A stretch of DNA of 64,000 nt from positions 496,001 to 560,000 of the forward strand of contig NZ_CP062948.1 in assembly GCF_014898175.1 (NCBI RefSeq), written 5' to 3'. Shown piece after piece: positions 5,032 through 24,164 of this stretch (positions within the stretch are counted from its first letter, which is position 1; the number at the start of each line of letters is the position of its first letter). The notes beneath the pieces are model-generated. The model saw nothing but the letters and a program-made list of their open reading frames with translations. It was not told the origin of the DNA and ran no database searches. Position numbers and translations under genes: made by a program. The DNA comes from Bifidobacterium lemurum (lineage in GTDB: Bacteria; Actinomycetota; Actinomycetes; Actinomycetales; Bifidobacteriaceae).

Positions 5032-5136
5032 TGAGTATTTGTAGTGTTTGAGGCCGTTGGTTATTGTGTTTGGAGGCCGGGGTTATGGCGGGGTGAGGCC
5101 GGTGACGGACTGGTTGGGCGCCACCGGCCTGTTCGG

Positions 5137-5889
5137 TTAGTTGTCGAGCATGGTTTGCCCGTGTCGTTGTCTCATGTTGTATTCGCCGGTGTCGATCCAT
5201 ATCGTGTTGTGCACGATGCGGTCGAGGATCGCGTCGGCGATGGTGTCGCCTCCGAGTTGGCGGTGCCATTCCTTGGTCGCCAATTGGGTGGCGAACGCGG
5301 TGCTGGCGGTGTCGTAGCGCAGTTCCATGAGTTCGAGGAGGAAGCGTTTGAATGGTTCGTCGGGTTTGTCGACGAGCCATTCGTCGATCGCGAGCAGGTT
5401 GTAGGTGGCGTATTTGCGCACGAGCTTGGGCACGCCGCCCGGCTTGCCGGCGGCCACCGTCACCTGCTCGGCCAGGTCGGGCATGCGGATGTAGATGGCG
5501 CGGTACCGCGCCCGGCAGGCGGATTTCGCCAGCGCGCACAACAGGTGCGATTTGCCCGAGCCGGTGGCTCCCTGGAACACGGTGTTGAGCCGTTGCTCCA
5601 GATAGTTTCCGGTGTCGAGGCCGGCGAGCACGCTCCTGTCGAGCCCGCGTTCCTCCACGAGGTCGATGGTTCTCAGGTCGGCCTGGGGGTAGCGTAGCCC
5701 GGCGCGTTTGACCAGGCGTTGGATCTTGGCGTCCATGTGGACGGAGTGGGCGTTGTCGACCGCGAGCCTGACCGTCTCCGCATGGCTCAGGGGCACGATG
5801 ATTCGCTCGTCCAGGCGTTCGAACGCGTCGAGCAGGTCCTGGGCGCTCATCTCGCGCAGCTTGCGCTTGGTCTCGGTGTCGATGATCAT
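5137..5889 (-). CDS. istB: IS21-family helper ATPase IstB, copy 2
   Basis: A 250-aa AAA+ ATPase that partners the adjacent transposase. Walker A is GATGSGKSHLL and Walker B is LLAIDEWLVD; the C-terminal IstB signature ADAILDRIVHNTIWIDTGEYNMR is recognisable. The start at 5889 lies 7 nt after the istA stop and excludes the out-of-frame extension. It is only distantly similar to copy 1 (2070-2855). The frame is complete. Confidence 0.92.
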   Translation of the reverse strand: MIIDTETKRKLREMSAQDLLDAFERLDERIIVPLSHAETVRLAVDNAHSVHMDAKIQRLVKRAGLRYPQADLRTIDLVEERGLDRSVLAGLDTGNYLEQRLNTVFQGATGSGKSHLLCALAKSACRARYRAIYIRMPDLAEQVTVAAGKPGGVPKLVRKYATYNLLAIDEWLVDKPDEPFKRFLLELMELRYDTASTAFATQLATKEWHRQLGGDTIADAILDRIVHNTIWIDTGEYNMRQRHGQTMLDN

Positions 5890-5896
5890 CTGCCCG

Positions 5897-7468
5897 TCAC
5901 CTTCCCATGCTCGCGTAGTAGCCGCCGCCGCGCACCCAGCCACCGGCGCCGAGACCATCGCCGATGCCGCCGCCATCGTCGTCGGGGATTTCGTCGGTCC
6001 GGTCCTGCCCGGATTCGAGGATCGGCCGGATATGCGAATAGCGTGGCGAGGCGACCGACCGCAACGCCAACGCACACGCGTTCTCCAGGCGTTGCGCGGA
6101 ATAGCGTTTCGAAAGCCTCAGCACCGCCAGCGCGGGATCCACGCCCTGCTCGTCGAGTCGTTCCGCGGCGAACAGCCTGCCGATCACGGCGGCGCAGCCG
6201 GGGCCTATTCGCCGGGCCCATTGCTCGCAGCGTTTCCTGTCCCACGGCTTCCATGTGGCTTTATCGGGAAGGTCGGCCTCGTTCGTCGAATACCTGTTGG
6301 CGACGGTGGCGGGCAGGAGCCTGTGCGTGCAGAGCCTGGTGTTTTTGCGCCAGACCTCGAGCGCGCTCGCCCCGATCCGCAAATCCACGGCGGAGCCGAC
6401 GTACGCGTGCGGGACGGAATACCAGTTGCGCGCCCACGCGACGTGGCCGTTGGCCTGGACCCTCCTGCCGTAGACCCAGTCCGCCACCTCGTACGGCAAC
6501 GGGGGCAGTGCGATGAGCAGTGGCCTCTCCTCGCTTTCGAACACGGAAAGCCTGGATCCGTCGCGCTTCTGGAACGGGCGGGAATTGTATTCCATGAGCC
6601 ATGCGCGTATCGCCGCGCGCAGCTCGTCGAGCGAGCCGAATTCACGGTCGCGCATCGCTCCGGCCAACGCCATCGTGGCATGCCACACGGTGTTCTCCAC
6701 CGAGGGCTTGTCCTTCGGCCTCCTCACCCGTCCGGGCAGCACGGCCGCCGAATAGTGCTCGGCCAGCCCCCGGTACGCGTCGTTCAACACGACCTCGCCC
6801 TCACGTGGATGCTTGACCACGCCGGTCTTGAGGTTGTCGCACACCAGGCGCGGCGTGGAACCGCCGAACCACTCGAACATCGCCACATGACAGCGCAGCC
6901 ACGAGTTCTGCCCCATATCCAGGGCGGGCTCCACGAACGCGTACCGACTGAACGGCAACACGGCCACGAACAGGTGCACCCTCGACGAATCCCCGGTGAC
7001 CGGATCGACGATCCGCATGGTCTTGCCCGCCCAGTCGACCTCGATCGTCCGGCCGGCCTTGTGCTCCACGCGCGAGGCCACCCCGAGTCCCGCCACATAC
7101 GCCGCGTACAGCTTGCAGAACCTGTCGTACCCCATATAGGGCTTCCCGGTCTGCCGGCATCCGTCCATGTACTCGCCTTGCAGGATCCTCAACGTCACGC
7201 CCACACGCGCCAGCTCACGATGCACCTTCGCCCAGTCCGGCCGTTCGTACGCGCTCTCACGATCACCACGCCCCGGGAACAACAGGGCGTACACCTCGTC
7301 ATCGGTCTTGCCCGCGACGTCGGCCCAGCCGACACCGGCCGACGTCGCGGCATCGAGCGTTTCCGCGACGCTTCGGCGCGCGATCCCCTGGGATTTCGCG
7401 ATCGCGCGGCCCGACAGACCCTGCTCGCTCAGGCGCAGGATCGTCTTTGCCTTGATTTTCCGTACCAT
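5897..7468 (-). CDS. istA: IS21-family transposase IstA, copy 2
   Basis: A DDE transposase of 523 aa. The start ATG at 7468 follows an AAAGGAG ribosome site. An N-terminal HTH (about residues 10-40, LSGRAIAKSQGIARRSV) leads to the rve core: Asp in IEVDWAGK, Asp in LVCDNLKTGV and Glu in KPSVENTVWHA, so the triad is complete. The C-terminal region includes HVAWARNWYSVPH, typical of this IS21 subgroup. The glycine-rich tail is low complexity. No frameshift was seen, so the element may still be mobile. Confidence 0.92.
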   Translation of the reverse strand: MVRKIKAKTILRLSEQGLSGRAIAKSQGIARRSVAETLDAATSAGVGWADVAGKTDDEVYALLFPGRGDRESAYERPDWAKVHRELARVGVTLRILQGEYMDGCRQTGKPYMGYDRFCKLYAAYVAGLGVASRVEHKAGRTIEVDWAGKTMRIVDPVTGDSSRVHLFVAVLPFSRYAFVEPALDMGQNSWLRCHVAMFEWFGGSTPRLVCDNLKTGVVKHPREGEVVLNDAYRGLAEHYSAAVLPGRVRRPKDKPSVENTVWHATMALAGAMRDREFGSLDELRAAIRAWLMEYNSRPFQKRDGSRLSVFESEERPLLIALPPLPYEVADWVYGRRVQANGHVAWARNWYSVPHAYVGSAVDLRIGASALEVWRKNTRLCTHRLLPATVANRYSTNEADLPDKATWKPWDRKRCEQWARRIGPGCAAVIGRLFAAERLDEQGVDPALAVLRLSKRYSAQRLENACALALRSVASPRYSHIRPILESGQDRTDEIPDDDGGGIGDGLGAGGWVRGGGYYASMGR

Positions 7469-7630
7469 TAAAGGCAACTCCTTTCACCACACGTCCCTCG
7501 CATGGTGAAAGGAGCCTAACCAACCATGGTCTCCGACCGCAATAACCCCGGCCTCGAAACAAAATGACCCACAAAACCCACAACGGCCCCCAACCGCAAT
7601 AACCACGGACCTCAACAAATCAAATAATCA

Positions 7631-7715: not shown

Positions 7716-7799
7716 GATGACGTCCTTTCCGACTCAACGAGTCCAAGAAAACGTCACCACCTCGTCCAGCCGACACGAACTTGACAAAACACAGCCCCT

Positions 7800-7867
7800 C
7801 CTACGGATCCACACGCCGCTACCTCGACATGTCCCGGTTCGATGGCAACCTACAAGCAACGAACTGA
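7800..7867 (+). pseudogene. unidentified gene 3' end, right of IS nest
   Basis: The last 22 codons of the frame interrupted by the IS3 nest, ending in GNLQATN and TGA. They lie within one arm of the inverted repeat that brackets the GT32 gene. See 639-807 for the other half. Confidence 0.4.
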
Positions 7868-7920
7868 ACACCACACCAGGAACAGGCGGAACCAAAAGTG
7901 TGCGAACCTTCGGGCACTAT
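7808..7920 (+). repeat. inverted repeat arm A (pairs with 9051-9166)
   Basis: About 113 bp that matches the reverse complement of 9051-9166 at roughly 80-85% by eye. The shared block covers the C-terminal codons STRRYLDMSR and a non-coding tail with CTTCGGGC. The two arms face each other across the frameshifted GT32 gene. Confidence 0.8.
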
Positions 7921-7997: not shown

Positions 7998-8998
7998 TTA
8001 ATAGCGTGCCACAATCCTTGCAACCATCTCATCAAAAGATAAAAGATTGTAGCAGTATTTTTTTATCAATGAGATTGATAAGTCGTCATAATACGCTTTT
8101 CTTGCTAACTTATGGATATAAGTGAATTCATCAAGTTGCTTTCCGTTAGAGACAAAATCTTTTGATAACATATGCTGAAGAATCTCGCAGCCAGTATTAT
8201 TATTAGGTATTAAAATATTCTCCTGTTGAAATAATTCTATATATGACAAACCTACAATCGCCATATCATTGAAAATTAAGTATTCAATACAGAAATCATT
8301 TCTGCACCAATATTCTAAAAGAACTTCGTATAAGTATTGCAAGAATAAAGATCCTTTTTGACAGGCAAGGAAATAGGTAGCAAATTTAGATGTCTGAGGC
8401 ATTGTTGACATATCTTTTTTAGCTAAACGAACGCCTTTCGCATAATAGAACGGATGGGAAAGGATCTCCAAAGGAATGCTTTTGCTCAAAAGAACCGTTG
8501 AATCCAACCAGATTCCACCATTCTGATGCAGAGTAGCACATCTTAGAATATCGGAGAAAAAGGCAGGTTCTATTATTCCAGCATTAAACCTATCAATTAT
8601 TTTTCCCGGAAGAGACACATACTGATCGTAATTATCCAAAGTAAGTATTCTATAATCAAATTGCCCCCCTCCAAAACACTCTTTTGATTATGAACAACAG
8701 CACGAATCAACTCGGGAGCACTGTTGATTCCCGTTAACCAACAGGTCCATACAGGCACCCTATCCGTCTTGAGAAAAGGAATTGCGGTTTCCGTACGTTT
8801 ATTATAATCACGGAAAAGAAAATCATATTCTTTTCGGATATATTTTTGAGTTTCTTTTGAAAAGAAAGAATAAACCTGGTCTATTCTTTTCTTTGAAATC
8901 AAAAACTGACAATTCTCCATTTTCCTTATCAGCAAAGGAATGAACATACTCGTAAGATATGGCTTATTGGTTAACCGAAAATCATTTATCATTAGCAT
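7998..8998 (-). pseudogene. GT32-like capsular glycosyltransferase, frameshifted
   Basis: Two overlapping minus-strand frames make one sugar transferase. The first starts at 8998, directly after a GGGAG, and reads through VPVWTCWLTGINSAPELI to VLEGG. The second continues QFDYRILTLDNYDQY and holds the nucleotide-sugar DXD region NGGIWLDSTVLL. The frame changes in a run of six G (C at 8664-8669 on the plus strand); seven would restore the match. This layout fits the Gly_transf_sug (GT32, capsular polysaccharide synthesis) family, about 330 aa when repaired. The gene is AT-rich and bracketed by inverted repeats. The frameshift could be phase variation, decay or a sequencing error. Confidence 0.75.
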
Positions 8999-9050
8999 CT
9001 CCCAAAAAGGTAGCGTCTGAGATTTACCCTCCCCGGACTCTGTCCGGTGT

Positions 9051-9166
9051 GGGTAGCGCCCGAAGGTCTGCGTACTTTGGTCATTGCCCGCCTGTGGCGC
9101 GATGTTCAGTTCGCTGCTTGTAGGTTGCCATCGAGTCGGGACATATCGAGGTAGCGGCGTGTGGAC
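9051..9166 (-). repeat. inverted repeat arm B (pairs with 7808-7920)
   Basis: The partner of arm A. It includes a 46-bp block (9056-9101) repeated directly at 9205-9250, so short repeats are layered around this breakpoint. Confidence 0.8.
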
Positions 9167-9216
9167 CATTCGGTGGGGACGATGCGGCGGATTTTGTCGC
9201 GGTAGTGCCCGAAGGC
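9106..9216 (-). pseudogene. C-terminal remnant, same family as 7800-7867
   Basis: An open minus-strand stretch reading YRDKIRRIVPTEWSTRRYLD and continuing to NLQAAN and TGA. It closely matches the C-terminus at 7800-7867. Upstream the frame is lost at the adjacent hairpin. The protein family is not recognised. Confidence 0.4.
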
Positions 9217-9279
9217 TTGCGCACTTTGGTCATTGCCCGTCCGTGGTGCGTTGACCAAAGTGCGCAAGATCTCGGGCGC
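9205..9279. repeat. 28-bp-arm hairpin downstream of HtrL gene
   Basis: The arms 9205-9232 and 9252-9279 are complementary at about 24 of 28 positions, with a 19-nt loop; the core is CTTGCGCACTTTGGTCA. It lies just past the end of the HtrL-like gene (9313) and could end transcription, but no T run follows. The left arm is part of a 46-bp direct repeat (9056-9101). Confidence 0.7.
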
Positions 9280-9312
9280 TAGGGGCTGCGGACGTTTTCT
9301 TGGAGATGTTTC

Positions 9313-10231
9313 CTATGCGAGAGTGATTGTTCGCATCATGTGTCGGAATTGGCGGATGCTGTGCTTCAGGCAAAGTTTGGCCCAATGGTATCGTTGCCTC
9401 GCGGAGATGGTTTTCTCGTCGTCGCCGTATGGCACGGCCTGCGTGCGGGACGCCTCGCCAGTGTAGTCGCGTAGCGGGGAGAACCAGCTGCTGGGTAGTA
9501 TGGCGTAGTGCTCCGGGTTCCATCGCGCGCACATCTGCAGCACGATTTGGTCGTCGTCGATCATGCCGCAGCATAACAGGTGGAGGTATTGCTCGCGCAC
9601 GTCGTCGTAGATACGGCGCGCGTATCCGGTTTTAACGACCAAGCAATCACCTTGGATGAACGTGTCGGTGCGTCGCACGATGTCGAACACGGGGGCGTCG
9701 TCCGGTCGTTTGACCGCGAAGATCGTCACGTCTTTCTCGAAGCCCCCCCCCCCCCCACCGCATGTCGAAGAACTCAGGGTCTGGATAGAGCGTGCCGCCG
9801 TGGTCGAACCCAAAATCGATCCATGCCAGATGCTCCGTATGCGCGGTCGCGGCAGCTTGCTGCATGCACCAGTATTTGAGCGCCATCACGTAGTCGTATT
9901 CGGCTTTTGCCACTTCAGGCTTGTCCGGGAAGAGGCTGTAGGGAGGGTACGTTCTCGCCGTCGAGCGCATGAGGGCCAGCAGCTGCGGGTCGATCGTGGC
10001 GTGGTCGTCGATCATGACGACCGTGGTGTTGGCGCGACCGAAATCCGAGCGGATTCGTTCGACTTTCGGCGCTATTTCGGGGGTGGTGTACACGATGAGA
10101 TCGTTGCGCATGCGCGCCCAATGGGCGAAGTAGTCCAGATATTTCTGGTCGCTGCGGGTGGAGTCGGACCAGTCCCCACGTCCGATGGGGAAGAACGCCG
10201 TAACCAAGGTGATCGATGTGTCGTCAGCCAT
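9313..10231 (-). CDS. HtrL/YibB-type glycosyltransferase, phase-variable (OFF)
   Basis: The first frame starts at 10231 behind GAGAGGATAAATCAGC. It reads ITLVTAFFPIGRGDWSDS, typical of HtrL_YibB/WlaTC-type glycosyltransferases, and reaches LAWIDFGFDHGG and FFDMRW. It then enters a run of 14 G (minus strand) and goes out of frame, ending after about 30 more codons. The correct continuation, FEKDVTIFAVKRPDDAPVFD to the stop at 9313, is in another frame. Tracts of 13 or 16 G would join the halves into a protein of about 305 aa. It lies 26 bp after the flippase gene in the same operon. As printed it is in the OFF state. The reaction and sugar are unknown. Confidence 0.82.
9743..9756. repeat. C14 homopolymer inside HtrL-like gene
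   Basis: Fourteen consecutive C on the plus strand (G on the coding strand), between codons for the MRW of FFDMRW and FEKD. It is the longest homopolymer noticed in the window. Slipped-strand changes here would switch the gene between frames. Confidence 0.97.
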
Positions 10232-10257
10232 GCTGATTTATCCTCTCTCTTACTTTC

Positions 10258-11778
10258 TTACTTCCGAACGATTTTGCGGATGATGACAGAGCGTTCACGT
10301 CGCCCTAGCAGCACAAGCGTGTCCACCGCGCAGGTAACGAAGGCCGTGAGAGCGCATCCGGCAAGCAACCCAGGCCAGCCATCGTGCTGCACGGGTATCG
10401 CCTCACCTGCCCAGTAGCCCAAGGTCGCGGCCAGCACGGTGGCAGTTATGTACTGCATGTAGATTAGATAGAACATACGCCGCCGAATGTGTAGGCATCT
10501 CGCGGCGTAGATAGGCACGAAGGTGAGGTTCGCGACGATGCTGACCAGCTGAGACACGGCACCGACCGCGTAGATGCCCCAATCCGTCAGTTCGACGCAC
10601 GCCAGCGTCAGGGCCAGCGAGGCCACGCCGCATCCGAGCCATGCCAGGGAGTAGTTGCGCAGCCGGTTGACCAGCAGCGGCACATTCTGCAGGGTGATGG
10701 CCACACCTGAAAGGAAGAACCCGCCCATGGTGAACACCATCAGCACGTAAATCATGTGCGCGTCCTGCCCGGGCTGCCACAATGTGATGAATGCCTCGCC
10801 ATTGACCAGAAGGGTCACGAACACGATGTTGGTGAAGAACCCGGTGATACGCATGCTAGACGCGAGCTCACGAAACAGTTCGTCAGGTCTGCCCTGCGCG
10901 AACAGTCGGGTCTGCTCGGGCGAGAACAACCCCGATATGGTGCCCATCAGGCCGGAGATCGCGTTGGGTACGACCTGCGCAATGGAGAGGTAACCCATGT
11001 GAAGGGGGCTAATCGCAAGATTCGCAATCAGCAGGCTCAGCCCGTCCTGCAGGATCTGCTGCAGCTTGATCACGGTGTTCCAGACGCCGCTGGACAGCAT
11101 CTCCCACGTGGTCCTCCACGACACCGCCGATTTACGGAACCGCAACTCGGGCGTCAGACGCCGCGTATACGCGAAGTTCATGCCGGCCATCACCAACGTG
11201 CCCAAGCAGGTGGCCATGCCCACGAACAACACATACGTGGGGAACAAGGCGAAGCACGCAACCATCACTACGACGCGCGTCAATGAGTACGCTATATTCG
11301 CCAGGCTAGACAGATACAGCTTGTTCCTGACGAACGTCGCCACGTTCAGCACCGTGCTCAATGCGGACACCACGAAATTCAGATACACGAAGAAGAACAG
11401 GCACTTGACGTCGGTCACCAGATGAGGCGAGATGTTGATGACATGCTCCAGTCCTAGGATCAACGGGACCGCGACCGCGCTCAGCATGAGGGCCAGCAGC
11501 ACGTTGGCCGCGAGCGTGGACGAGAAATACCCATCCGCCTTGCGTTTGTCCCCGTGATGCCAGGCCACGGTGATGAACCTGCCAGCCACGGAATTCAACG
11601 CGATTGTGAACAGAGTCGCGTATCCCACCATATTATTCGCCAACCCCACGAAACCATACGCTTCCGCGCCCACACGCCCCACGATGAACGGAGTGACCGC
11701 GAAACCGATCCCAAGATTCACCGCGAAATTCACCAGACTCGCGGCAAGATTGATCACAAACTGCTTCTTATTGCCCAT
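10258..11778 (-). CDS. Wzx-like polysaccharide flippase
   Basis: A membrane protein of about 506 aa with some 12-14 hydrophobic segments, laid out like the MOP superfamily of polysaccharide exporters. The N-terminus (VNLGIGFAVTPFIVGRVGAEAYGF, shortened here to IGFAVTPFIVGRVGAEAYGF) matches the Wzx/RfbX first-helix region. It would flip the lipid-linked repeat unit across the cytoplasmic membrane for Wzy to polymerise. The ATG at 11778 follows AAAGAGGTGGT very closely; an ATG at 11799, eight codons upstream, is an alternative start. It is followed 26 bp later by the HtrL-like gene and preceded by the short ORF that ends at 11836. Confidence 0.85.
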   Translation of the reverse strand: MGNKKQFVINLAASLVNFAVNLGIGFAVTPFIVGRVGAEAYGFVGLANNMVGYATLFTIALNSVAGRFITVAWHHGDKRKADGYFSSTLAANVLLALMLSAVAVPLILGLEHVINISPHLVTDVKCLFFFVYLNFVVSALSTVLNVATFVRNKLYLSSLANIAYSLTRVVVMVACFALFPTYVLFVGMATCLGTLVMAGMNFAYTRRLTPELRFRKSAVSWRTTWEMLSSGVWNTVIKLQQILQDGLSLLIANLAISPLHMGYLSIAQVVPNAISGLMGTISGLFSPEQTRLFAQGRPDELFRELASSMRITGFFTNIVFVTLLVNGEAFITLWQPGQDAHMIYVLMVFTMGGFFLSGVAITLQNVPLLVNRLRNYSLAWLGCGVASLALTLACVELTDWGIYAVGAVSQLVSIVANLTFVPIYAARCLHIRRRMFYLIYMQYITATVLAATLGYWAGEAIPVQHDGWPGLLAGCALTAFVTCAVDTLVLLGRRERSVIIRKIVRK

Positions 11779-11835
11779 ACCACCTCTTTCTTCCAGCATA
11801 TTCAAGATAGGATTGCTGCATCTGGGTAGCTTCGT

Positions 11836-11961
11836 TCATGTCATATATCCTGCTTGACGCACAGCTTCGACTCCAGCGGACCAATCTGAGCCATGAGATG
11901 CGCGTAATACGCCTTCGATACCCCATTGCCAAATCGAATCGACGTGGTGTTTTGCGATCAT
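11836..11961 (-). CDS. 41-aa ORF coupled to GT2 gene, possibly frameshifted
   Basis: The start ATG at 11961 overlaps the GT2 stop as TAATG and has GGAGG six bases upstream, so it should be translated well. It encodes 41 residues (beginning MIAKHHVDSIWQW) and stops with TGA. Just beyond, another frame stays open to the flippase start and reads NEATQMQQSYLEYAGRKRW. This suggests one protein of about 65 aa broken by a frameshift. No family was recognised. The GT2-like gene, this ORF and the flippase are contiguous in the operon. Confidence 0.45.
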   Translation of the reverse strand: MIAKHHVDSIWQWGIEGVLRASHGSDWSAGVEAVRQAGYMT

Positions 11962-13001
11962 TATCTTCCTCCACGTATCCGTTTCACAAATGCGACAGCC
12001 CATCCATATGCAGACAGTATTAACGGATTATTCGTATCCAGAACTCTCTTGGTAATCTCATTGCGCAAGCCGGCAGTCTGTATTTCGCGGCATACCTGTT
12101 TCACCAGTTCGTCGTCTGCGATGGTTTGGATCATCGCTCGACGAAGGCGTTTCGTCTCCTTAGAACAATCCTCATAAAGAAAACTCAGAATCACACCTGT
12201 CTGAAATACAAACTCATTAGCGAACAAATTCAGCGCTTGGTCGCTCCAATCACGGAGCAAAACCCTTTCATGCGCATAGAGCTTGCGGCGATCAATGAAC
12301 CAACGAGGATTAAACCGATTGCATAGGCTGCCAGACCGCGATATATAGTGGTAGGCTGCATCCGGAATGCAGACAAGCCTGTCAAGATTCGTATACAAGG
12401 ATACGTTGAACAATGAGTCCTCGCCTACATTCACAGTCTCGTCAAAACGCGCTTTACATTCATCAAGGAACGCTTTCCAGTACAGCTTGTTCCACGCGGG
12501 AATACAGTAGCTCGACTGCATCAGTGTCGGTATCAGCGACTTAACTTCATCATTACACTCAGTCGCCGCGAACGTCATGGTGTTTGTCCCCAGCAGAGAG
12601 TACTTACCACAGTCATAACGTTCATTGATAGTGCCGCAAATCACCATCTGCGCTTGGTGAGACAATGCTTGTCTTGTCATTGTTTCAATCATGTCGGGCT
12701 CGATATAGTCATCGCTGTCAATGAAACACACATATGTTCCGTACGCGATATCCAGGCCAGCATTTCTTGCAGAGCCCAAGCCACCGTTAACCTTGTGGAC
12801 TACTCGAATACGATTATCACGTTCTGCCCATGCATCGCACAGCGCCGGACAGTTATCCGGTGATCCATCATCCACCAGAACAATGTCCAACGCCTGATAC
12901 GTCTGATCGACGATACTCGATACGGATTTCTCCAAATATTGTTCAACACCATACACAGGTACGATAACCGACACTACAGGCTTCTCACCCTGTTGTTCCA
13001 T
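11961..13001 (-). CDS. GT2-family glycosyltransferase
   Basis: A 346-aa GT-A fold enzyme that would add one sugar to the lipid-linked EPS repeat unit at the inner membrane face. The N-terminal domain shows VSVIVPVYGVEQYLEKSV, then the nucleotide-binding DDGSPDN and the DXD-type metal site FIDSDDYIEPD. The start at 13001 is supported by AAGGAG nine bases upstream and is preferred over an ATG at 13049. It begins six bases after the preceding gene ends. The donor sugar cannot be read from the sequence. Confidence 0.88.
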   Translation of the reverse strand: MEQQGEKPVVSVIVPVYGVEQYLEKSVSSIVDQTYQALDIVLVDDGSPDNCPALCDAWAERDNRIRVVHKVNGGLGSARNAGLDIAYGTYVCFIDSDDYIEPDMIETMTRQALSHQAQMVICGTINERYDCGKYSLLGTNTMTFAATECNDEVKSLIPTLMQSSYCIPAWNKLYWKAFLDECKARFDETVNVGEDSLFNVSLYTNLDRLVCIPDAAYHYISRSGSLCNRFNPRWFIDRRKLYAHERVLLRDWSDQALNLFANEFVFQTGVILSFLYEDCSKETKRLRRAMIQTIADDELVKQVCREIQTAGLRNEITKRVLDTNNPLILSAYGWAVAFVKRIRGGR

Positions 13002-13006
13002 GCTCG

Positions 13007-14107
13007 TCAACTCCTTTTCCTTACCACACTCTCCAACAGCTGCCTCCACTGCGTTTGTATCGACCTCAGTTCGAATGTTTCAACATCATCCTGCGCATGC
13101 TGCGACATGTCCCGACGTAGCGAGGCATCGTTCATCAGCGCAGCAATGGATTCGCTCAAAGAAGGAACGTCGAAGCATGGCGCAAGTCTGCCGTTCACAT
13201 TGTCCATCATCACTTCGTTCGGCCCGGTCGGACAATCGAAGCTCACTATCGGCAACTTGTACGCTTTAGCCTCCAACAACACCATAGGTAATCCCTCAAA
13301 TCGTGAGGTCATCACGAACATGGCGGCTTTCCGGTACCATGTGTCCATATCACTCACACGTCCCTCAAGCGTGAGCTGGTCACCGATGCCGGCCTCTTGT
13401 ATTTTCCGCTCCAACATCGGTCGATCCTCGCCTTCTCCAAGAATGGACCAGTGCCAATCAGGATGGGCAGGCAATACCTGCGAGGCCACATCTACCAGCA
13501 TGTCAAAACCCTTCTGGTAGGTCAGGCGTCCGGAGCTGAGGATGAGTTTGGATTCCTGGTCGTACACCGGTTCCGGATCTGGTTTCGTCATCGGATTTGG
13601 AATGGCAGCTACAGGGCACTTCAGTTTGAGGTGCTGTTCGTACAATGCTTTGTCCGCTTTGGTCAACGTGACAATGGCGTCTGCGGAACGCGCAGCCCAA
13701 CGACGGGTAAGCTTGCGGTACGGCACTCCGGGATTCTGTAAATAGTTGAAGTGCTCCCAAGAGATGACCTTCACGCCGGTCAACTTCTTTACGAACAATG
13801 AATACATGTCGAGAATGCCATCGATATCCACCAGAACATCAATATGCTGTTCCAAAACAATGCGTTTCAACCTCAAGCAGGTATCGAAGTAATGCTGGAT
13901 GCCATGTGTGGGCTCGGCGTATATCGTGAACCGATTGATATGCCGGTCGATGGCGAAGAACGGTTGATCCGATTCCTCGAACAGACTGATGAAAGAAATC
14001 CGGTAATCTTCAATGTCTGCAAGGGCATTGGCAATCATAATGCCGACGTTTTCCGTTCCACCGGAACGGCTGATGTCACCGGAAAAGAAACCGATATGGA
14101 CACTCAT
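13007..14107 (-). CDS. GT4-family glycosyltransferase
   Basis: A 366-aa GT-B enzyme. The N-terminal acceptor domain has the loop FFSGDISRSGGTENVG. The C-terminal donor domain has ILSSGRLTYQKGFDMLVDVA, with the GRL-x-x-x-KG signature, and the E-x7-E-like region SRFEGLPMVLLEAKAYKLP, both typical of GT4. It would act in repeat-unit assembly. The start overlaps the preceding stop by 4 nt. The PTGPNE motif after the EX7E region is common in EPS GT4 proteins that use UDP-sugars. Confidence 0.88.
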   Translation of the reverse strand: MSVHIGFFSGDISRSGGTENVGIMIANALADIEDYRISFISLFEESDQPFFAIDRHINRFTIYAEPTHGIQHYFDTCLRLKRIVLEQHIDVLVDIDGILDMYSLFVKKLTGVKVISWEHFNYLQNPGVPYRKLTRRWAARSADAIVTLTKADKALYEQHLKLKCPVAAIPNPMTKPDPEPVYDQESKLILSSGRLTYQKGFDMLVDVASQVLPAHPDWHWSILGEGEDRPMLERKIQEAGIGDQLTLEGRVSDMDTWYRKAAMFVMTSRFEGLPMVLLEAKAYKLPIVSFDCPTGPNEVMMDNVNGRLAPCFDVPSLSESIAALMNDASLRRDMSQHAQDDVETFELRSIQTQWRQLLESVVRKRS

Positions 14108-14703
14108 CTGCGCCCCCCAACAGCAACAGAATAATCCTCATCCGGCACAAGGTTCTCGACCAGATTGTGGCAGTATCCTGCTGTGGCATTGTCACGATGA
14201 ATTATCCGCGCGGGGTTGCCTATTACAATGCTGTGATCAGGCACGTCGAAATTCACATACGCGTTAGGGGCGATCAGAACATCATTCCCAATACGAATGC
14301 CACCGACGAGCACCGCGTTCGATCCAATCCAGACACGATTGCCAAGATGAGGAACGCCCACATTGCTTCCCCGGTTCTCCTGCCCGATCACCACGCCGGG
14401 GCTGAGGTTGACGTTGCTTCCGAGGCGAGCTTCGCCATTCACAATTACAGTGCCTCGATGCCCGATAAATAGGCCAGCGCCAATAGTCGCGCCATACCCA
14501 ATTTGGAAGCCTGTCTTTATCGACAAGCGTAAAAGTCGGAAACGATACCAGTAATGCAGCACACCTCGCGGACAAGCTTGTGCCTTACGTAGCACGGACG
14601 TGTAGCGGAATCCTTGCTGCTCCAAACGCAATTTCAGATGACTACCGTCACGTCCCAAGTATTGTCTGCAATCAGTAGCAATCAGTGTGTTCGCACGGGT
14701 CAT
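14104..14703 (-). CDS. LbH (hexapeptide) O-acetyltransferase, EPS-associated
   Basis: A 199-aa protein. Its middle is a left-handed beta-helix of hexapeptide turns (IGYGATIGAGLFIGHRGTVI, then LSPGVVIGQ, IGSNAVLVGGIRIGNDVLIA), ending in the usual VIGNPARII. This is the architecture of serine O-acetyltransferase-like enzymes that acetylate EPS sugars from acetyl-CoA; His in IGHRG is a likely catalytic residue. It overlaps the downstream GT4 start and begins 3 bases after the Wzy-like gene. An EPS role is inferred from this context; the serine acetyltransferase family is the nearest known relative. Confidence 0.82.
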   Translation of the reverse strand: MTRANTLIATDCRQYLGRDGSHLKLRLEQQGFRYTSVLRKAQACPRGVLHYWYRFRLLRLSIKTGFQIGYGATIGAGLFIGHRGTVIVNGEARLGSNVNLSPGVVIGQENRGSNVGVPHLGNRVWIGSNAVLVGGIRIGNDVLIAPNAYVNFDVPDHSIVIGNPARIIHRDNATAGYCHNLVENLVPDEDYSVAVGGRR

Positions 14704-14706
14704 AGC

Positions 14707-15912
14707 TTATTCCTTTGCAAACTCATGTTCTCGCGAAGTCAGGGGAACCCGCTGATAACGATTTAGCACCAGTAACAAGAGCACTGGGAAGGTAGCTGCC
14801 TCGTGTCTGGTCCACGAGCCAAAGTCTGGCTCGAAAATAAAAGACGCAAGTACATAACCCAAAAACACACACAAGGCCAGAAACAGCACAGGATCTTTGA
14901 TTCGATTAATCTGTCGAAGCAGATTCACTAAATAAAACGTTACCAACGTCTGAAACACGAAAAAAGGTAGATAATAAGCACCACGCATGGCAAGTTCAAT
15001 AGGAATCATCATTCGGAACGCATTGATCACGTAATTCACCATGAATATAGGAAGACCTTCTCCTGCAACCCAATTCTGGATGAATGTGGATGAGTCCGTG
15101 TTACCGTCAAACGCCTCATCGTATCCTGCGCGCAGACTGAGCACTTGATCATATTCGTCAGGCATAATACGGCTAGCTACTGCCAGCATTATATAAATCA
15201 AGCCTAATAAGATAACAACAATCAATAATACAGAGCCCACATGCAACTCACTGCGACAGCGAAAAAACTGCAACACTGCATATACCGCCAGAACAAGTGC
15301 GGCAATCAGAATGTAATACTCGCGAAAGAACGTACTTTCGTAATACAGCACGCCTGCGCTCAACAGTATTTTCAATGTCGAACTGTTGATTGGCAGTATC
15401 AGCACCAAATACACGCCAAAGAAGAATGCAAACTGGATAACATCCTTGCCGATGGTGAAGATATAGATGTTCAGCAATCCCACAGTGGCGAGAATGAATA
15501 ACGACTGTAAGAGATCCGGCGCATCCGCGTGCATGATTAGCACTGCGGCAAGCGCGGTGAGAAGCACTCCCAAGCACAGCGACCAGTCGAGCATAGTGCT
15601 CAACCGAGGAAAGTTCAATGAGGCAAACAGATCCGATGCAACGCGATAGCTGCCTTCCCACTCCTGCATGCCACTACTATCTTGCAAGCCCAGTGTGGCA
15701 TTTACCATGCCAAGGATGCGGTTGTTGTCGTAGAAATACTTATCCGGCAAGAAGAACGCCACCATGCATTTGGCGATGATCATCACCGGCAGAATGCAGG
15801 CAAGCAGCGCGTTCTTGTTGCGCGTTTCCCATCGGGTTCTGAGCACACGCAATTGTCGCCGGTCTAACGGCTGTCCATGCATGTGGCGTGCGCGAACGTC
15901 ACTCATCGGCAT
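14707..15912 (-). CDS. EpsG/Wzy-like polysaccharide polymerase
   Basis: A 401-aa integral membrane protein with about 10 hydrophobic helices and a large polar loop between about residues 215 and 275. That is the layout of EpsG-type Wzy polymerases, which join lipid-linked repeat units outside the membrane. No sequence motif is decisive, so the call rests on topology and on being the only such gene between the chain-length protein and the flippase. The start overlaps the upstream gene by 10 nt and follows its coding sequence without a gap. Confidence 0.75.
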   Translation of the reverse strand: MPMSDVRARHMHGQPLDRRQLRVLRTRWETRNKNALLACILPVMIIAKCMVAFFLPDKYFYDNNRILGMVNATLGLQDSSGMQEWEGSYRVASDLFASLNFPRLSTMLDWSLCLGVLLTALAAVLIMHADAPDLLQSLFILATVGLLNIYIFTIGKDVIQFAFFFGVYLVLILPINSSTLKILLSAGVLYYESTFFREYYILIAALVLAVYAVLQFFRCRSELHVGSVLLIVVILLGLIYIMLAVASRIMPDEYDQVLSLRAGYDEAFDGNTDSSTFIQNWVAGEGLPIFMVNYVINAFRMMIPIELAMRGAYYLPFFVFQTLVTFYLVNLLRQINRIKDPVLFLALCVFLGYVLASFIFEPDFGSWTRHEAATFPVLLLLVLNRYQRVPLTSREHEFAKE

Positions 15913-17639
15913 ACCTCTTGGTCTGCATGCTCTGCTTTGTTCAGCTCAGCGCAGTAGAAATCCTGCAGCCATACGGCATTCTGCACGATATCAAAACCGG
16001 CATTGGCAACAAGGTCCGCGCCTTGTGCACGGTCAGCAACGTTAGGATTGTTGCGCTGTGCCAGAATTCCCTTCGCCCATTCATCCGGCGTGGCGTCCAA
16101 CGGCACAATTTGTGTATTGGCGATGATGTCGCATTGGGCGGGAACCCGGTCGGAGATGGTGCACGGCAGTCCGGACGCCTGCGCCTCGATCATGGTGACG
16201 GGCAATCCTTCAAACAGGCTGGGGAGTACAAAGGCGTCCATACCTTGCATAATGCGGTTCACGTCCTCGCGCACGCCAAGGAATCGCACAGCGTTATGCA
16301 ACCCCAGTTGATCCACCTTGGAGCGGATCTGGTTCTTGAGCTCGTCGTTCAGTTCGCCTCCACCCACCAGCCAAAGCACGGAATCTGGGTTCTGGTCATG
16401 AACGGCCTTGAAGATGTCGATCAGGAAGGTGTGGTTCTTCTGGGGGAAGAACCGGCCCACGTGCCCCATCACGAACGTGCTGTCGCTGGTGACGCCGAAT
16501 TCCTCACGCACCACACGAGCCACATCCGCATCATAGCGGTAGAGGCTGGTATCGATCGCGTTGCGCTGCTGGACCACCTTGTCTCGGTTCTTCTCACCGA
16601 ACAGCCAATCACCGGCTTCCTGCCCACAGGCGAACATGTGGGTCGTCACGGACGGCAGGCGCAAACGGAAGTATTCGCGGAAAATCGATTTGAGGTCGAA
16701 TCCCACAGGGCGGTTGTGCGCGTGCGCGATACGCACCGGCACGTCGAGCTTTTTGGCCTCCTTCAGGCCGAAGTAGCTGCGCTCCTCGAGGTTGGAGTGG
16801 ATGATGCGGTATTCCGGATGAGCCCTGAGGAATGCGCGAATCTGCTGCTTGTACTTGCCGAAGTACTGCGGATACATCGGGCACATGCGGTAGATGCGTC
16901 CGCCGAGTTGCTTGATCTCCGGCTCATAGGCGGCCTCGTATTCACGGTTGACGAGGAAGTCGTAGGTCACTTTACTGCGGTCGAAGTGGCGCAGATAGTT
17001 CATCATCATCGTTTCGGCACCACCGCGGTCCATCACGGTGTCAAGCACAAGCACTCGCATCGGCTTATCTCCCTCGTGGGATTCCCCGCTTGCCGAATCA
17101 CCGTCTGTATTGTGCTCCTGCACGTTGCTGCCCGGTGCCGAAACCACATTCTCCCGGCGGATGGCGCTGACGGACAGTTCCTGATCGAGCTTCACCACGG
17201 AATCGGCGGGCACATCGCCGCTGATCACGCAGCCGGCGCCGATCACGGTGTTGTCGCCGATGGTCGAGCCTTTGAGGATGGTCACATTGCTGCCGATCCA
17301 ACAATGCCGTCCGATGGTCACCGGCGCCTCGGCATAGCCTTGGTCTTTGATGGCGAGCGAGGGGTCCGCGAAACGGTGATTGTGATCATAGATGTGCACA
17401 TTCTCGCCGAAAATCGTCTCCGAACCGATGGTGATGCCCGCACGCGCATGCAGACCGCAGCCGTTGTTGAAGAACACATTGTCGCCAAGCTGAATCCGCG
17501 CGCCGTTCTCCACCGTAGCTTGGAAGCCCTTGCGCATGTGGAAGCCGCTTCCCCAGGTGAAGTGGTGCCCGTACACAAGTTTGTAGAACAGCTTGAGCAT
17601 CAGTCCGGTGATGCGGTACCAAAGTTTGATGACGATCAT
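15903..17639 (-). CDS. fused LbH acetyltransferase and GT4 glycosyltransferase
   Basis: A 578-aa protein with two enzyme modules. Residues about 45-160 are a hexapeptide beta-helix (IGRHCWIGSNVTILKGSTIG, DNTVIGAGCVISGDVP) of the maltose/galactoside acetyltransferase kind, with the HNHRF motif near residue 87. A polar linker of about 35 residues follows. From MRVLVLDTVMDRGGAETMMM (residue 194) it is a GT4 enzyme: VMGHVGRFFPQKNHTFLIDI and the EX7E region SLFEGLPVTMIEAQASGLP. An internal ATG at 17060 follows GAGGGAG, so a free GT4 could also be made from the same message. It overlaps the upstream gene by 4 nt. Confidence 0.87.
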   Translation of the reverse strand: MIVIKLWYRITGLMLKLFYKLVYGHHFTWGSGFHMRKGFQATVENGARIQLGDNVFFNNGCGLHARAGITIGSETIFGENVHIYDHNHRFADPSLAIKDQGYAEAPVTIGRHCWIGSNVTILKGSTIGDNTVIGAGCVISGDVPADSVVKLDQELSVSAIRRENVVSAPGSNVQEHNTDGDSASGESHEGDKPMRVLVLDTVMDRGGAETMMMNYLRHFDRSKVTYDFLVNREYEAAYEPEIKQLGGRIYRMCPMYPQYFGKYKQQIRAFLRAHPEYRIIHSNLEERSYFGLKEAKKLDVPVRIAHAHNRPVGFDLKSIFREYFRLRLPSVTTHMFACGQEAGDWLFGEKNRDKVVQQRNAIDTSLYRYDADVARVVREEFGVTSDSTFVMGHVGRFFPQKNHTFLIDIFKAVHDQNPDSVLWLVGGGELNDELKNQIRSKVDQLGLHNAVRFLGVREDVNRIMQGMDAFVLPSLFEGLPVTMIEAQASGLPCTISDRVPAQCDIIANTQIVPLDATPDEWAKGILAQRNNPNVADRAQGADLVANAGFDIVQNAVWLQDFYCAELNKAEHADQEVCR

Positions 17640-18772
17640 CGCAGATATGCCTCCGTGATCCTACGTAACATACGTTCCAACGTGAATCGGTCGAGATAGG
17701 TCTGGCGCACTTGTTCAGACGGAATTCGACGGTCCAACAGCTCCAACACGGCGTCCGCGCCGGCTTCAGCGTCTCCTATGGGGAACAGCAAGCCGTTATG
17801 ATGAGGCTCCACCACCTCGTCGTTGCCGGTCACATCGGTCGCGGCGATCGGAACACCGGCGCGCAACGCCTCCACCAGCGAATACGGCATGCCCTCATAC
17901 AGGGATGTGAGCAGGTACACGTCGAATGCGCCGACGATACGTTCGGCATCCGGCCTATAACCAAGCAGGTGCACATTGGCCTCAACGCCATGCTCGGCGG
18001 CGAAACCGCGCATTCGTTCCTCATAGGGGCCGTCCCCCACGTAGATGACGTGCGTGTCCGGCCGACGTTCAATCACTTTCGCGGCCACGGCAATGGAAGT
18101 CATCGGATCCTTCTGCTCCACCAGTCTGGCGGTCACTCCCACCACGGGAGCATCCGCCGGAATGGTTTGGCCAAGCCCCAACACATCCAGCGCCTCCGCA
18201 CGGGACGGCATGACGATATCACGGACGCCGTTGTACACGGTTTCGAACTTGCTCGGATTATCCAGCCGCTCGGCCAGCGCGGCCCGCCGTTCGCCCTCGC
18301 TCACATTGAAGGTCAGCGTGGTGGCGTGGCGGGAGAACCATCGTTCCAACCCGACAAACACCATGCGTTTCTTCCCTGAGAATTCAGGAGCTTGGAAGGA
18401 ATAGGCGTGCGGCGTGTAGAACACCTTACGCACTCCGCACTGTTTGGCGGTGAGACGACCGATAATACCCGCTTTGGAACTGTGGCAATGCACGATGCCC
18501 GGCTTGAACTCTCGGATTACGCGCTTGACGAATCTTAGGGCACGAAGCTCGTGTTGGGGACTGATCGGGCGCACCAAATCGTCACAGGGAATCAGCCTCG
18601 CCCGCTTAGCCATGCCAGGTAGGGCAGCAGCGAAATACTCATCCACACGCGATGTGCCATACACCAACGCGATATCAAACAGTTCCGGGTCGAGTCCATT
18701 CACCAAATCAACCACATGACGGCTGGAGCCGCCCATCGATTCAATGATGAGCAACAGGCGGTGTTTGTTCAC
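17636..18772 (-). CDS. GT4-family glycosyltransferase
   Basis: A 378-aa GT-B enzyme. The N-terminus has LLIIESMGGSSRHVVDLV, with a GG-x-x-x-H acceptor loop, and the region VHCHSSKAGIIGRL. The donor domain has VTARLVEQKDPMTSIAVAA and SLYEGMPYSLVEALRAGVP, the GT4 signature. This resembles EPS glycosyltransferases of the EpsD/WcaA type that extend the repeat unit early. It overlaps its neighbours by 4 nt on both sides. Substrate unknown. Confidence 0.88.
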   Translation of the reverse strand: MNKHRLLLIIESMGGSSRHVVDLVNGLDPELFDIALVYGTSRVDEYFAAALPGMAKRARLIPCDDLVRPISPQHELRALRFVKRVIREFKPGIVHCHSSKAGIIGRLTAKQCGVRKVFYTPHAYSFQAPEFSGKKRMVFVGLERWFSRHATTLTFNVSEGERRAALAERLDNPSKFETVYNGVRDIVMPSRAEALDVLGLGQTIPADAPVVGVTARLVEQKDPMTSIAVAAKVIERRPDTHVIYVGDGPYEERMRGFAAEHGVEANVHLLGYRPDAERIVGAFDVYLLTSLYEGMPYSLVEALRAGVPIAATDVTGNDEVVEPHHNGLLFPIGDAEAGADAVLELLDRRIPSEQVRQTYLDRFTLERMLRRITEAYLR

Positions 18773-20169
18773 TGCTCGGCCTTCTCGGTCGGCTCATGTG
18801 ACTTCTCGGACGTTCCCTGCGAGGAATGCTTTGCCGCCTTGTCTGAGTAATAGTAGTCCCCTTTTCCGCGCTGTTCCTTGACCATATCGACCACAGCGCC
18901 GGCAGGCTTCACTCCGACCAGTTCGAACTCTTCGGCAGAGGCCTTCAAGGTCTTTTTCTGAGCCACGCCTTGGCCCACCACCATCAGCAACGTTCCGCCT
19001 TCCTTGGCGAATACGGCAGAATCATTGGCCACACTCATCGGAGTGGAATCCACAATAACGTTGTCGTACTGCTTGGCGGCCGCGTGCAAAAGCATATTCA
19101 TGGCCTTGGAATTGATCAGAATAGAGGGATTGGCTTGCTGCTCCCCTGCGGGCATGACATGAAAAGTAGGTTTCCAATACTGCTGAATGGCCTCATCGAG
19201 TTTAGCCTGCCTGGCAAGCACATGGGCAAGCCCCACCTTGCCGTTAATCCCCAATACCCCGGCCATGGAAGGCTTGCGCAGGTCCGTGTCGATCAGCAAA
19301 ACAGTACGGCCTCTTTCCGCAATGGCGGCAGCCAAATTCACAGCGATCGTGGTCTTACCCTCAGACGCGTCAGAAGACGCCACAACAATCACATTCGACA
19401 TATCCGTTTTGTCCGGAACGATGAAATCGAGGTTCAAGGCCAAGCGACGAATGTCTTCGGCGGCCTTGCTGGAGGGATCGGAGATAACCGCTGGCGCCGT
19501 TCCCCTGAACGTATCCGACTTCGGCACCGAGCTGATGACGGGGGAATACAGAATCCGCTGTATATCAGCGGTATCTCGCACACGTTTGTCGGATACGTCA
19601 ATGACGACGATCACCACCAAGGCCAGCACCAGACCAGCCAAGGTTCCCATGAATATCAGACGGGGCTTGTTCGGAGATACCGGAGAGCTCGGAGCCACGG
19701 CCCGCTCGATGACGGAGAACTGCAGACCATTGAACAATCCCGTCTCATTGCTGGCGAAGCTGTCGTCCTCGATTTGCTGCACGAGACTGTCATAAACGGC
19801 ATTGGCGATATCCGCGGCTTGCTGCGAATCAGAACTGGTCGCGGTGACGGTCATCAGGCCGCTGGCATCCACTGAGGCGCTTACCGATGAGGCCATAGCA
19901 TCAACCGACGTGTCAAGGTCCAGCTCATCGATCACCGGCTCCAGCACAGCCGAGGAAGTGGCCACACGCGAGACGACTCCCATACGTGAATCACTCGTCG
20001 AGCCGTCAGCAGCCGCGGACTGCGCATTGGTGACGGCCGTCACGGACGCACTGTATTCGGGCACCGTGGTCTGTACCACACACACAGTGACGGCAAGCGA
20101 GACCACCAATACAGCCAAGCCCACAATCCAATGCTTTTTGATCATCTGCAAAATATCGGCGATACTCAA
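18769..20169 (-). CDS. Wzz-like chain-length protein fused to BY-kinase
   Basis: About 466 aa, using a TTG start at 20169 that has GGGAGG eight bases upstream; the longer frame to 20211 has no ribosome site. Residues 1-190 are a Wzz domain: two membrane helices around an outer loop, with PSSPVSPNKPR before the second helix. The rest is a bacterial tyrosine kinase: Walker A SSDASEGKTT, Walker A' LLIDTDLRKP and Walker B VIVDSTP. A small C-terminal tyrosine cluster (GDYYYSD) would be phosphorylated. Together they would set EPS chain length and export. It heads the minus-strand operon. Confidence 0.9.
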   Translation of the reverse strand: MSIADILQMIKKHWIVGLAVLVVSLAVTVCVVQTTVPEYSASVTAVTNAQSAAADGSTSDSRMGVVSRVATSSAVLEPVIDELDLDTSVDAMASSVSASVDASGLMTVTATSSDSQQAADIANAVYDSLVQQIEDDSFASNETGLFNGLQFSVIERAVAPSSPVSPNKPRLIFMGTLAGLVLALVVIVVIDVSDKRVRDTADIQRILYSPVISSVPKSDTFRGTAPAVISDPSSKAAEDIRRLALNLDFIVPDKTDMSNVIVVASSDASEGKTTIAVNLAAAIAERGRTVLLIDTDLRKPSMAGVLGINGKVGLAHVLARQAKLDEAIQQYWKPTFHVMPAGEQQANPSILINSKAMNMLLHAAAKQYDNVIVDSTPMSVANDSAVFAKEGGTLLMVVGQGVAQKKTLKASAEEFELVGVKPAGAVVDMVKEQRGKGDYYYSDKAAKHSSQGTSEKSHEPTEKAEQ

Positions 20170-20204
20170 CTGGCTATCCTCCCTTGACTCTGACTGCCGC
20201 GCAG

Positions 20205-20244
20205 AGCACACGTCTCATATCTAAGCACGAGGGGGGTACCCCAT
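20205..20244 (-). promoter_or_regulatory. EPS operon promoter region with GGGGTACCCC dyad
   Basis: A perfect 10-bp palindrome GGGGTACCCC at 20233-20242 lies about 64 bp upstream of the BY-kinase start. On the minus strand it is followed by TTAGATAT, a possible -10 region. Similar dyads occur upstream of the priming transferase (24182-24192) and, as halves, at 25671-25680 and 31976-31986. A transcription start was not determined. Confidence 0.45.
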
Positions 20245-22410: not shown

Positions 22411-23991
22411 TTAGTACGCGCCCTTATGCCCCAGAACCGCACCGACCGTGCGCAGCATGAGCACGATGTCGCCCAGCACGCTCCAGTTCTGCACATAGCT
22501 CACATCCAGCGACTCACTTTCCTCAGCGGAAAGGTCGGAGCGGCCGGAAACCTGCCATGGGCCGGTGATGCCCGGCTTGACGAGCATACGGGTGGCGTAC
22601 AGGCGATTGTAGCGGGCGTATTCCTCAGGCAGCGGCGGGCGGGGCCCCACCACAGACATATCCCCCTTGAACACGTTGAGGAACTGCGGCAACTCGTCAA
22701 TCGAGAAGCGGCGAATGAATTTGCCTACCTTGGTGATGCGCGGGTCATCCTTCATCTTGAAAATGAAGCGATCCTCCTGCCCGGTCTCCTCGGCGAGCTT
22801 CGCCTTCAGCTCGTCCGCATTGGTCACCATGGAGCGGAACTTGATCATCTGGAAAGGCTTGCCGCGCAGGCCGATACGCGTCTGCGTGTAAAACACGGGA
22901 CCGCCGTCCGTCAGCTTGATGGCGATCGCCACAGGTACGGTGACAATCAGCGAACAGACAATCGCCAAAGAGCTCACCACCAGATCAAACACACGCTTGA
23001 CGATGCGGTTCGCGGGCGAATACTGAGCCAGTCGCTGCGTGATGATCGTGGTGCCTTGAATCGAACGAATCGTGATCTCATGGCCGCTGGTGTCGGCGAC
23101 GGAAGCCACCATCGCCACCTCAAGGCCAAGCGACTCCATACGCACGGAGAAGATGTTGTAGTTGTCGGAGTATCGCTTGAACACGTCGGAGATCATCACC
23201 GTCTGCGCATGCATGTCCACCATGCGCTCGGCCAGATGATAATCATCGTATTCCAGCACCGGTAACGCGGAACCCCAGTTGGCCGCCATCTCATCATTCA
23301 GGGTGTCGAGATTCGTCTCGCGCTCGATCCGCCCCTCTGCCTTGTTAAAACGAATCGGGCATACGGCCACCGGACGATAGTTCAGCTGCTGGCGGCGTGC
23401 CAGAAATTTCAACGTACGCCCGATGCCCTCAGGGGAACCGACCACCACGGTTCCATACGCATACTCGCCTTTGCGGCGCCCACGGGTGATGAACACACGG
23501 GAGACGGCACGAGAGAGCACGGTCAGCAGCCAAGCGGCGGCGAGCATGTAGGTCAGCGTGCTCAACCACAAGTCCAAGTTCAGCGCAAAATTCAAGGCGC
23601 ACAACAGCACCCAGCACTCCACCGCGCCTTTGAACAGCAGTGTGTTGATCTGGTAGCCATCACCCATCACATGGCGGTGATAAATGCCTGACTTCTGCAG
23701 GCATAGCACGTACAACGCCGCGGCGATGCACATATACACAGTCACATTCACACGGAAGCCGAACTGGTACGACATAAAAGAATTGGGCTGCCCCAACACA
23801 AGCAGCACGGTGGCACCAGCGATGATGAACATGGCCGCGTCGACCAGCATAAGCGCCAGATTCACATAAAAACGCCAGTACAGCACATGAGACAGCTGCT
23901 GTTGCCGGATGTCGATCAGCTGTTCGACCGATCGGGGAGAATCGACACGATCATCCGCAGCCTTCCGTGTCCACTCAGCATTCACACCCAT
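22411..23991 (-). CDS. undecaprenyl-phosphate sugar phosphotransferase (priming GT) 1
   Basis: About 526 aa. This enzyme starts EPS synthesis by moving a sugar-1-phosphate (often galactose or glucose) to undecaprenyl phosphate. N-terminal membrane helices (about residues 35-180) and a CoA-binding-like domain (VVVGSPEGIGRTLKFLARR) precede the catalytic bacterial-sugar-transferase domain. That domain shows KRVFDLVVSSLAIV, the FRSMVTNAD motif, RRFSIDELPQFLNVFKGDMS, VGPRPPLPEE and KPGITGPWQVSGRS. The start at 23991 has GGAGG 11 bases and GAGGAG 2 bases upstream; an ATG at 24048 is the longer option. It is paralogous to 25734-27395. Confidence 0.93.
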   Translation of the reverse strand: MGVNAEWTRKAADDRVDSPRSVEQLIDIRQQQLSHVLYWRFYVNLALMLVDAAMFIIAGATVLLVLGQPNSFMSYQFGFRVNVTVYMCIAAALYVLCLQKSGIYHRHVMGDGYQINTLLFKGAVECWVLLCALNFALNLDLWLSTLTYMLAAAWLLTVLSRAVSRVFITRGRRKGEYAYGTVVVGSPEGIGRTLKFLARRQQLNYRPVAVCPIRFNKAEGRIERETNLDTLNDEMAANWGSALPVLEYDDYHLAERMVDMHAQTVMISDVFKRYSDNYNIFSVRMESLGLEVAMVASVADTSGHEITIRSIQGTTIITQRLAQYSPANRIVKRVFDLVVSSLAIVCSLIVTVPVAIAIKLTDGGPVFYTQTRIGLRGKPFQMIKFRSMVTNADELKAKLAEETGQEDRFIFKMKDDPRITKVGKFIRRFSIDELPQFLNVFKGDMSVVGPRPPLPEEYARYNRLYATRMLVKPGITGPWQVSGRSDLSAEESESLDVSYVQNWSVLGDIVLMLRTVGAVLGHKGAY

Positions 23992-24164
23992 GTCTCCTCT
24001 TTTCCTCCGAGCCGCCGCCGCTTCTCCCATGCATTCGCACTTAAGCACTGCTCACATGCTTCTTTTCGAGATACAATCCCGGGATGCCTCCTCCAAGCAA
24101 TTCCTTGCGCGGCATCTTCAAACGCCACCCAAAGACCTACCCCAAAAGGGGACATCACATCGGT

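Follow-up and report, generated by a model that had tools for sequence, protein, structure and literature searches.

Poly-G tracts make glycosyltransferase genes phase-variable in Campylobacter and Helicobacter, in which switching has been demonstrated. The locus described here, in an exopolysaccharide (EPS) cluster of Bifidobacterium lemurum, resembles these in having a homopolymer placed to switch the frame of a surface-glycan transferase, but it is known from the layout of one genome alone. Within the genus itself, G tracts of the pilus genes of Bifidobacterium breve UCC2003 occur in culture as mixtures of lengths that also shift in mice (Penno et al. 2022, PMC9187656). In the accessible text of that paper, one pilus locus is given as approximately 37% G11 and 60% G12, database lengths of such tracts are said to be potentially misleading, and poly-G end artefacts are described for Illumina reads. 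These sortase-pilus switches share with our locus the genus, an intragenic G tract of roughly 10 to 14 and a dependence on tract length for joining two open reading frames (ORFs). They differ in that their tracts lie in the first gene of pilus clusters and their length mixtures have been measured (PMC9187656, in the text accessible), whereas the B. lemurum tract lies in the middle of an EPS transferase gene of the HtrL/YibB type, outside any leading gene of a sortase-dependent pilus cluster, has replaced conserved codons and is known from one assembly.

A second parallel comes from Akkermansia muciniphila, in which Amuc_1413, an EPS biosynthesis/export gene, carries a G9 tract; a change of frame truncates the protein, and length changes occur in evolved strains and across published genomes (PMC13055324, as far as its accessible text goes). 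Like B. lemurum, this is a gut commensal with a G tract in an EPS gene and a protein truncated by frame change; unlike it, A. muciniphila belongs to another phylum, the gene is of the export type and its reference form, with G9, is in frame. Among the literature matches listed, a set mostly without subscription journals, none described a poly-G switch in an EPS glycosyltransferase of bifidobacteria, and the word exopolysaccharide does not occur in the accessible text of Penno et al. 2022 (PMC9187656). From the literature searched, this type of locus seems unreported for Bifidobacterium; G tracts that switch length are already known there from pili, and the EPS transferase location seems to be the new part.

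Here we analyse the window, a 64-kb stretch of the B. lemurum genome, for the tract, its gene and their relatives. On our best reading the tract is real, young and prone to slippage, the gene is OFF in the assembly, and reversible EPS switching is plausible; we put the probability of this reading at roughly 0.45.

A G14 tract and the reading-frame break

An HtrL/YibB-type gene (10231..9313, minus strand) stands at the end of an EPS cluster comprising a priming sugar transferase, a kinase-like chain-length protein, GT2 and GT4 enzymes and two membrane proteins. Comparisons below are with Bifidobacterium eulemuris, which we take to be the sister species of B. lemurum. The relevant features, in window coordinates, are these:

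7998..8687, minus strand: second part of a Caps_synth gene, in another frame (the ORF with a start codon spans 7998-8639 and is open back to 8687); PF05704, profile positions 87-276
8597..9169, minus strand: ORF with the first part of the Caps_synth gene; PF05704, profile positions 5-82; residues 104-156 match a 352-aa frame in another genome (G037)
8664..8669, minus strand: G6 run at or beside the Caps_synth frame change, from frames and sequence
9313..9741, minus strand: second half of the predicted HtrL/YibB-type glycosyltransferase gene, in another frame, 142 codons and a TAG stop; PF09612
9743..9756, minus strand: G14 tract
9755..10231, minus strand: first half of the same gene, from ATG to the Trp codon at the tract, 159 codons; PF09612
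10258..11805, minus strand: upstream membrane protein with 9 hydrophobic segments in a simple scan, beside the transferase gene in the sister too
11961..20211, minus strand: remaining EPS genes, from Pfam and hydrophobic segments (GT2, three GT4-type enzymes, one with a hexapeptide domain, a hexapeptide acyltransferase, a membrane protein and a chain-length/kinase-like protein)
22411..24048, minus strand: priming sugar transferase (Bac_transf); PF02397, E 3e-67

The G14 (C14 on the plus strand) is flanked by T at 9757 and C at 9742, and on the minus strand the order runs from the ATG at 10231 through the Trp codon (9757-9755) and the tract (9756-9743) to C and TTC GAG AAA. The frame opened by the ATG passes through the tract, remains open for 35 codons beyond it and stops after 194 codons; the remainder, 9741 to 9313, is open in another frame as far as its TAG, and we found no further stop or frameshift in the gene. 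Sequence and frames thus confirm what the earlier note had claimed, that the tract splits the gene and leaves it in an OFF frame, and its arithmetic is correct: lengths three apart, for example 13 or 16, bring the two halves into a common frame. A search of 8900-10400 gave no promoter-like site.

The window is 29% G and 31% C and contains 28,666 G or C runs (single bases counted), the longest of which, the G14 apart, is 6. A chance homopolymer is ruled out by this maximum and by dinucleotide shuffles of the window, none of 100 of which produced a G14. A G8 pattern is a weaker test, with 7 overlapping matches in the window and 6 of 100 shuffles reaching that number. The tract is accordingly a long homopolymer in a coding region, beyond chance, at which a change of length switches the frame of an otherwise intact gene, as is characteristic of slipped-strand loci.

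The upstream membrane protein has no Pfam or NCBIfam match and is probably a polysaccharide flippase. Two PF02397 priming sugar transferases occur near the one EPS cluster, on opposite strands (22411-24048, minus; 25734-27395, plus).

Gene family and the intact orthologue

Both halves match Pfam PF09612 (HtrL_YibB), the first at profile positions 2-153 (E 6e-21, 75.6 bits) and the second at 188-264 (E 9e-6, 26.0 bits), each above the curated cut-off of 24.1 bits; they are, as had been proposed, parts of one family member. The narrower NCBIfam YibB equivalog cut-offs are reached neither by this gene nor by the intact sister protein. Pfam still labels PF09612 as of 'unknown function', and the prediction that the product is an HtrL/YibB-type glycosyltransferase takes its name from NCBI, where the sister protein (P0003) is called a WlaTC/HtrL family glycosyltransferase. 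Solved structures, searched with a profile, yielded no significant match that would assign a structural role to the Trp-x-Tyr-x-Phe segment at the tract, and among the literature matches listed for wlaTC or HtrL/YibB with phase variation there was no phase-variable member. With the 194-aa ORF as protein query, the matches listed held no in-frame or shortened near-identical copy, the closest being the sister cluster at 89% (cluster level). Broken copies of the family exist elsewhere: the metagenomic members P0044 and P0057 resemble a frame-shifted P0012, with the shift away from any glycine run.

Across 112 genomes (E 0.001) the first half had 3 matches and the second 6, the B. lemurum genome itself included. 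The B. eulemuris orthologue is intact at 304 aa and has no G tract; identity to it is 89% over the first half and 91% over the second, and the DNA from 9310 to 11781 is 90.3% identical. Of the EPS genes compared with 40 kb of B. eulemuris, just two are shared at about 90%, those for the membrane protein and the transferase; the others tested against the same 40 kb gave weak matches or none. A transposon-like stretch at 5031-7535, with an rve / Mu-transpos_C_2 ORF at 5897-7477 (minus strand), is 98-99% identical to B. eulemuris, where the DNA flanking it is about 90% identical.

The tract is not a simple insertion. Where B. lemurum has TGG-G12-C-TTC, B. eulemuris has TGG-GAATATCCC-TTC, encoding Trp-Glu-Tyr-Pro-Phe, such that the Glu-Tyr-Pro codons have been replaced with a net gain of 4 nt; the B. 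eulemuris stretch at this site, GGGAATATCCC, is nearly self-complementary. In an alignment of 55 of 58 relatives (P0044, P0055 and P0057 were excluded as truncated or frame-shifted), the Trp column is Trp in 53 and the Tyr column is aromatic in 51. A glycine run at the tract position occurs in none of 66 retrieved family proteins, 4 of which contain Gly-Gly-Gly, never at that position, and in five relatives checked across the gene span no G or C run exceeds 5. With no tract in B. eulemuris and such short runs in these relatives, a conserved contingency locus is ruled out, and the lack of a glycine run at the site in the retrieved family proteins likewise indicates that any switch has not been long kept. 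Every in-frame tract length would insert glycines into a conserved segment and lose the conserved aromatic residue. Because the tract overwrites conserved residues, re-framing may not restore function, and loss of the Glu-Tyr-Pro segment is, judged from the alignment, the main doubt about a working ON state.

Selective constraint on the two halves

Pairwise dN/dS against B. eulemuris, which averages both lineages of the two genomes, is 0.22 before the tract (159 codons) and 0.19 after it (142 codons), compared with 0.16 for the upstream membrane protein (507 codons). The two halves are similarly constrained. When amino-acid differences were polarised with four relatives, the 18 before the tract comprised 4 derived in B. 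lemurum, 9 derived in the sister and 5 unclear, and the 13 after it comprised 5, 3 and 5 respectively. On these small numbers the second half appears free of visible decay, from which it follows that the break would be recent or often undone. An old pseudogene is unlikely, since both halves are similarly constrained and the gene has no second lesion.

Long G tracts elsewhere in the genome, sister and genus

The B. lemurum genome is closed, in one contig of 2,965,103 bp, with a completeness of 99.95. It contains 13 G runs of at least 10, the G14 being the longest, and B. eulemuris contains 20; extrapolating the decay of run lengths in the window predicts 0.008 to 0.7 per genome, depending on the base run length. 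A G12 is present in 57 of 112 genomes of the genus. Some drafts carry G runs at contig ends or runs of 38-47 G, which look like artefacts.

Comparison of tracts between B. lemurum and B. eulemuris was tried at five loci. Three could be aligned through the tract, each with unequal lengths: G14 against none, G13 against G15 and G9 against G17. The G13 (L120:5677-5689) and its G15 counterpart (L121:6109-6123) have flanks 78% identical and sit in a small ORF approximately 500 nt beyond the end of a pilin ORF; a place inside the pilin gene is thereby ruled out, and this is a tract beside pilus genes. No clear gene surrounds the G9 (L137:1549-1557) and its G17 counterpart (L092:1498-1514), where the piece matched through the tract is 94% identical; tract length thus also varies where no coding role is obvious. 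The other two loci matched on one side only, the sister match ending before the G10 of an LPxTG gene and before a G12; B. eulemuris has G10 and G13 runs near its counterpart of the former, and the stretch retrieved for the latter has no G run of at least 8. When the 13 tract loci were compared with 13 sister stretches chosen by collinearity, only a 129-nt piece of one matched besides the G14 locus.

Pfam scans covered at least one neighbouring ORF for all 13 B. lemurum tracts and for 10 of the 20 in B. eulemuris. Matches include an LPxTG pilin (G10 close to its start), substrate-binding proteins, melibiase and 4-alpha-glucanotransferase, and in B. eulemuris a GH101-type enzyme, a beta-helix protein and a YDG/MBG protein; several ORFs have no Pfam match, and no glycosyltransferase family was found among those scanned besides the HtrL/YibB-type gene. 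Ten ORFs near G12 tracts in other genomes gave equally mixed matches, pyruvate kinase included, and a G tract alone is consequently no sign of a surface gene. The LPxTG protein has SpaA/FctA domains (L126:3783-7814, plus strand) and is open in the assembly; its G10 (G000:C1:1519840-1519849) fits the published pilus-type tract of bifidobacteria. B. eulemuris has three tracts (10, 11 and 10) within 850 bp (L085:1501-2349; G031:C1:839616-840464). A dispersed repeat of about 105 nt has some thirty matches in the B. lemurum genome and many in B. eulemuris.

The neighbouring Caps_synth gene

A Caps_synth (PF05704) transferase gene adjoins the HtrL/YibB-type gene, within 9169..7998 on the minus strand, and it too is split over two frames. 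Intact relatives match its parts, among them the 352-aa frame in G037 (41% identity to the second part over 209 residues), and the real start of the gene lies probably inside the ORF 8597..9169. With 33% G+C in its second part the gene is A+T-rich, and inverted repeats of 125 nt (7795-7919 and 9054-9178; 78% complementary) flank it. Three readings are possible: G runs have turned off two EPS genes, this end of the cluster is decaying, or G runs are miscalled here.

Discussion

On the reading that we prefer, a G tract would have arisen in the B. lemurum lineage inside a glycosyltransferase gene of the EPS cluster and put it out of frame. Polymerase slippage would then change the tract length frequently, and a population would mix out-of-frame cells, making a truncated product of 194 aa, with in-frame cells, whose full-length transferase would carry a run of glycines behind the conserved Trp; cells would consequently differ in the sugar or linkage added to EPS by the enzyme. 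All length data for B. lemurum at this locus come from one assembly. By analogy with other bifidobacterial tracts, slippage of a G14 is to be expected and length switching here is likely; since runs of this kind readily lengthen or shorten in these bacteria, the gene may alternate between ON and OFF. We infer slippage at the tract, an active enzyme in the ON state and an effect on EPS alike.

The proposal of phase variation in the earlier note stands in part: the OFF frame, the abundance of G tracts in genome and genus and the sister length differences at two tracts speak for it, the tractless sister and the replaced codons against it. Its further argument, that phase variation is likelier than decay since the two halves fit a single family member, is not supported in view of the tractless sister, the lost conserved residues and the broken Caps_synth gene. 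Partial support for the preferred reading comes from a non-random tract, a G-tract-rich genome, lengths that differ at all three aligned loci, similar dN/dS of the halves and the precedent in B. breve; against it stand the tractless sister, the overwritten Glu-Tyr-Pro and the Caps_synth break.

These last points are what one would see after a recent loss of the gene, in which a rearrangement swapped three codons for a G tract, the enzyme is dead and the tract slips without consequence. We consider this quite possible, though on the whole doubtful. The conserved Tyr segment would be missing from in-frame lengths, a transposase gene and inverted repeats are nearby, and the G9/G17 tract varies in a stretch without a clear gene; yet the second half is not visibly relaxed, with a dN/dS of 0.19 and own-lineage changes in 5 of 13 differences against 4 of 18 in the first half. 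The numbers are small and a very recent loss would look alike. Both readings take the tract to be real. It is unlikely that the true sequence has no run, or one of other length, and that the Caps_synth break at G6 is a miscalled homopolymer, even if two breaks at G runs in adjacent genes, the nearly self-complementary GGGAATATCCC of B. eulemuris, the poly-G end artefacts described for Illumina reads (PMC9187656, accessible text) and the runs at contig ends or of 38-47 G in drafts of the genus all point that way. The genome is closed and 99.95 complete, the other EPS-cluster genes scanned are full-length ORFs, and long tracts of different length recur at orthologous places in the separate B. 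eulemuris assembly.

That full-length enzyme arises from the G14 gene without any change in DNA is very improbable. Long G runs are in principle slippery, and transcriptional or ribosomal slippage on the G14 could give some full-length enzyme; since the first frame is open for 35 codons past the tract, slipped products could form. A programmed event of this kind would be expected to have a tract conserved in relatives, however, and B. eulemuris and the five relatives checked have none.

We return to reversible switching of a real, young tract as the preferred reading. More tentatively still, this may be an EPS phase switch seen soon after it arose, in which a G tract overwrote three codons of a glycosyltransferase gene that had been constant until then; surface polysaccharide, and not pili alone, would thereby come under slippage control in a Bifidobacterium, possibly together with the Caps_synth gene broken at its G6. 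As B. eulemuris keeps the gene without a tract, the birth of a tract can be studied here. Should slippage occur at the tract in the population, a gut symbiont would vary its surface polysaccharide by the mechanism known from bifidobacterial pili, and this, if true, would matter for its sensitivity to phages, its recognition by the host and the stability of strains.
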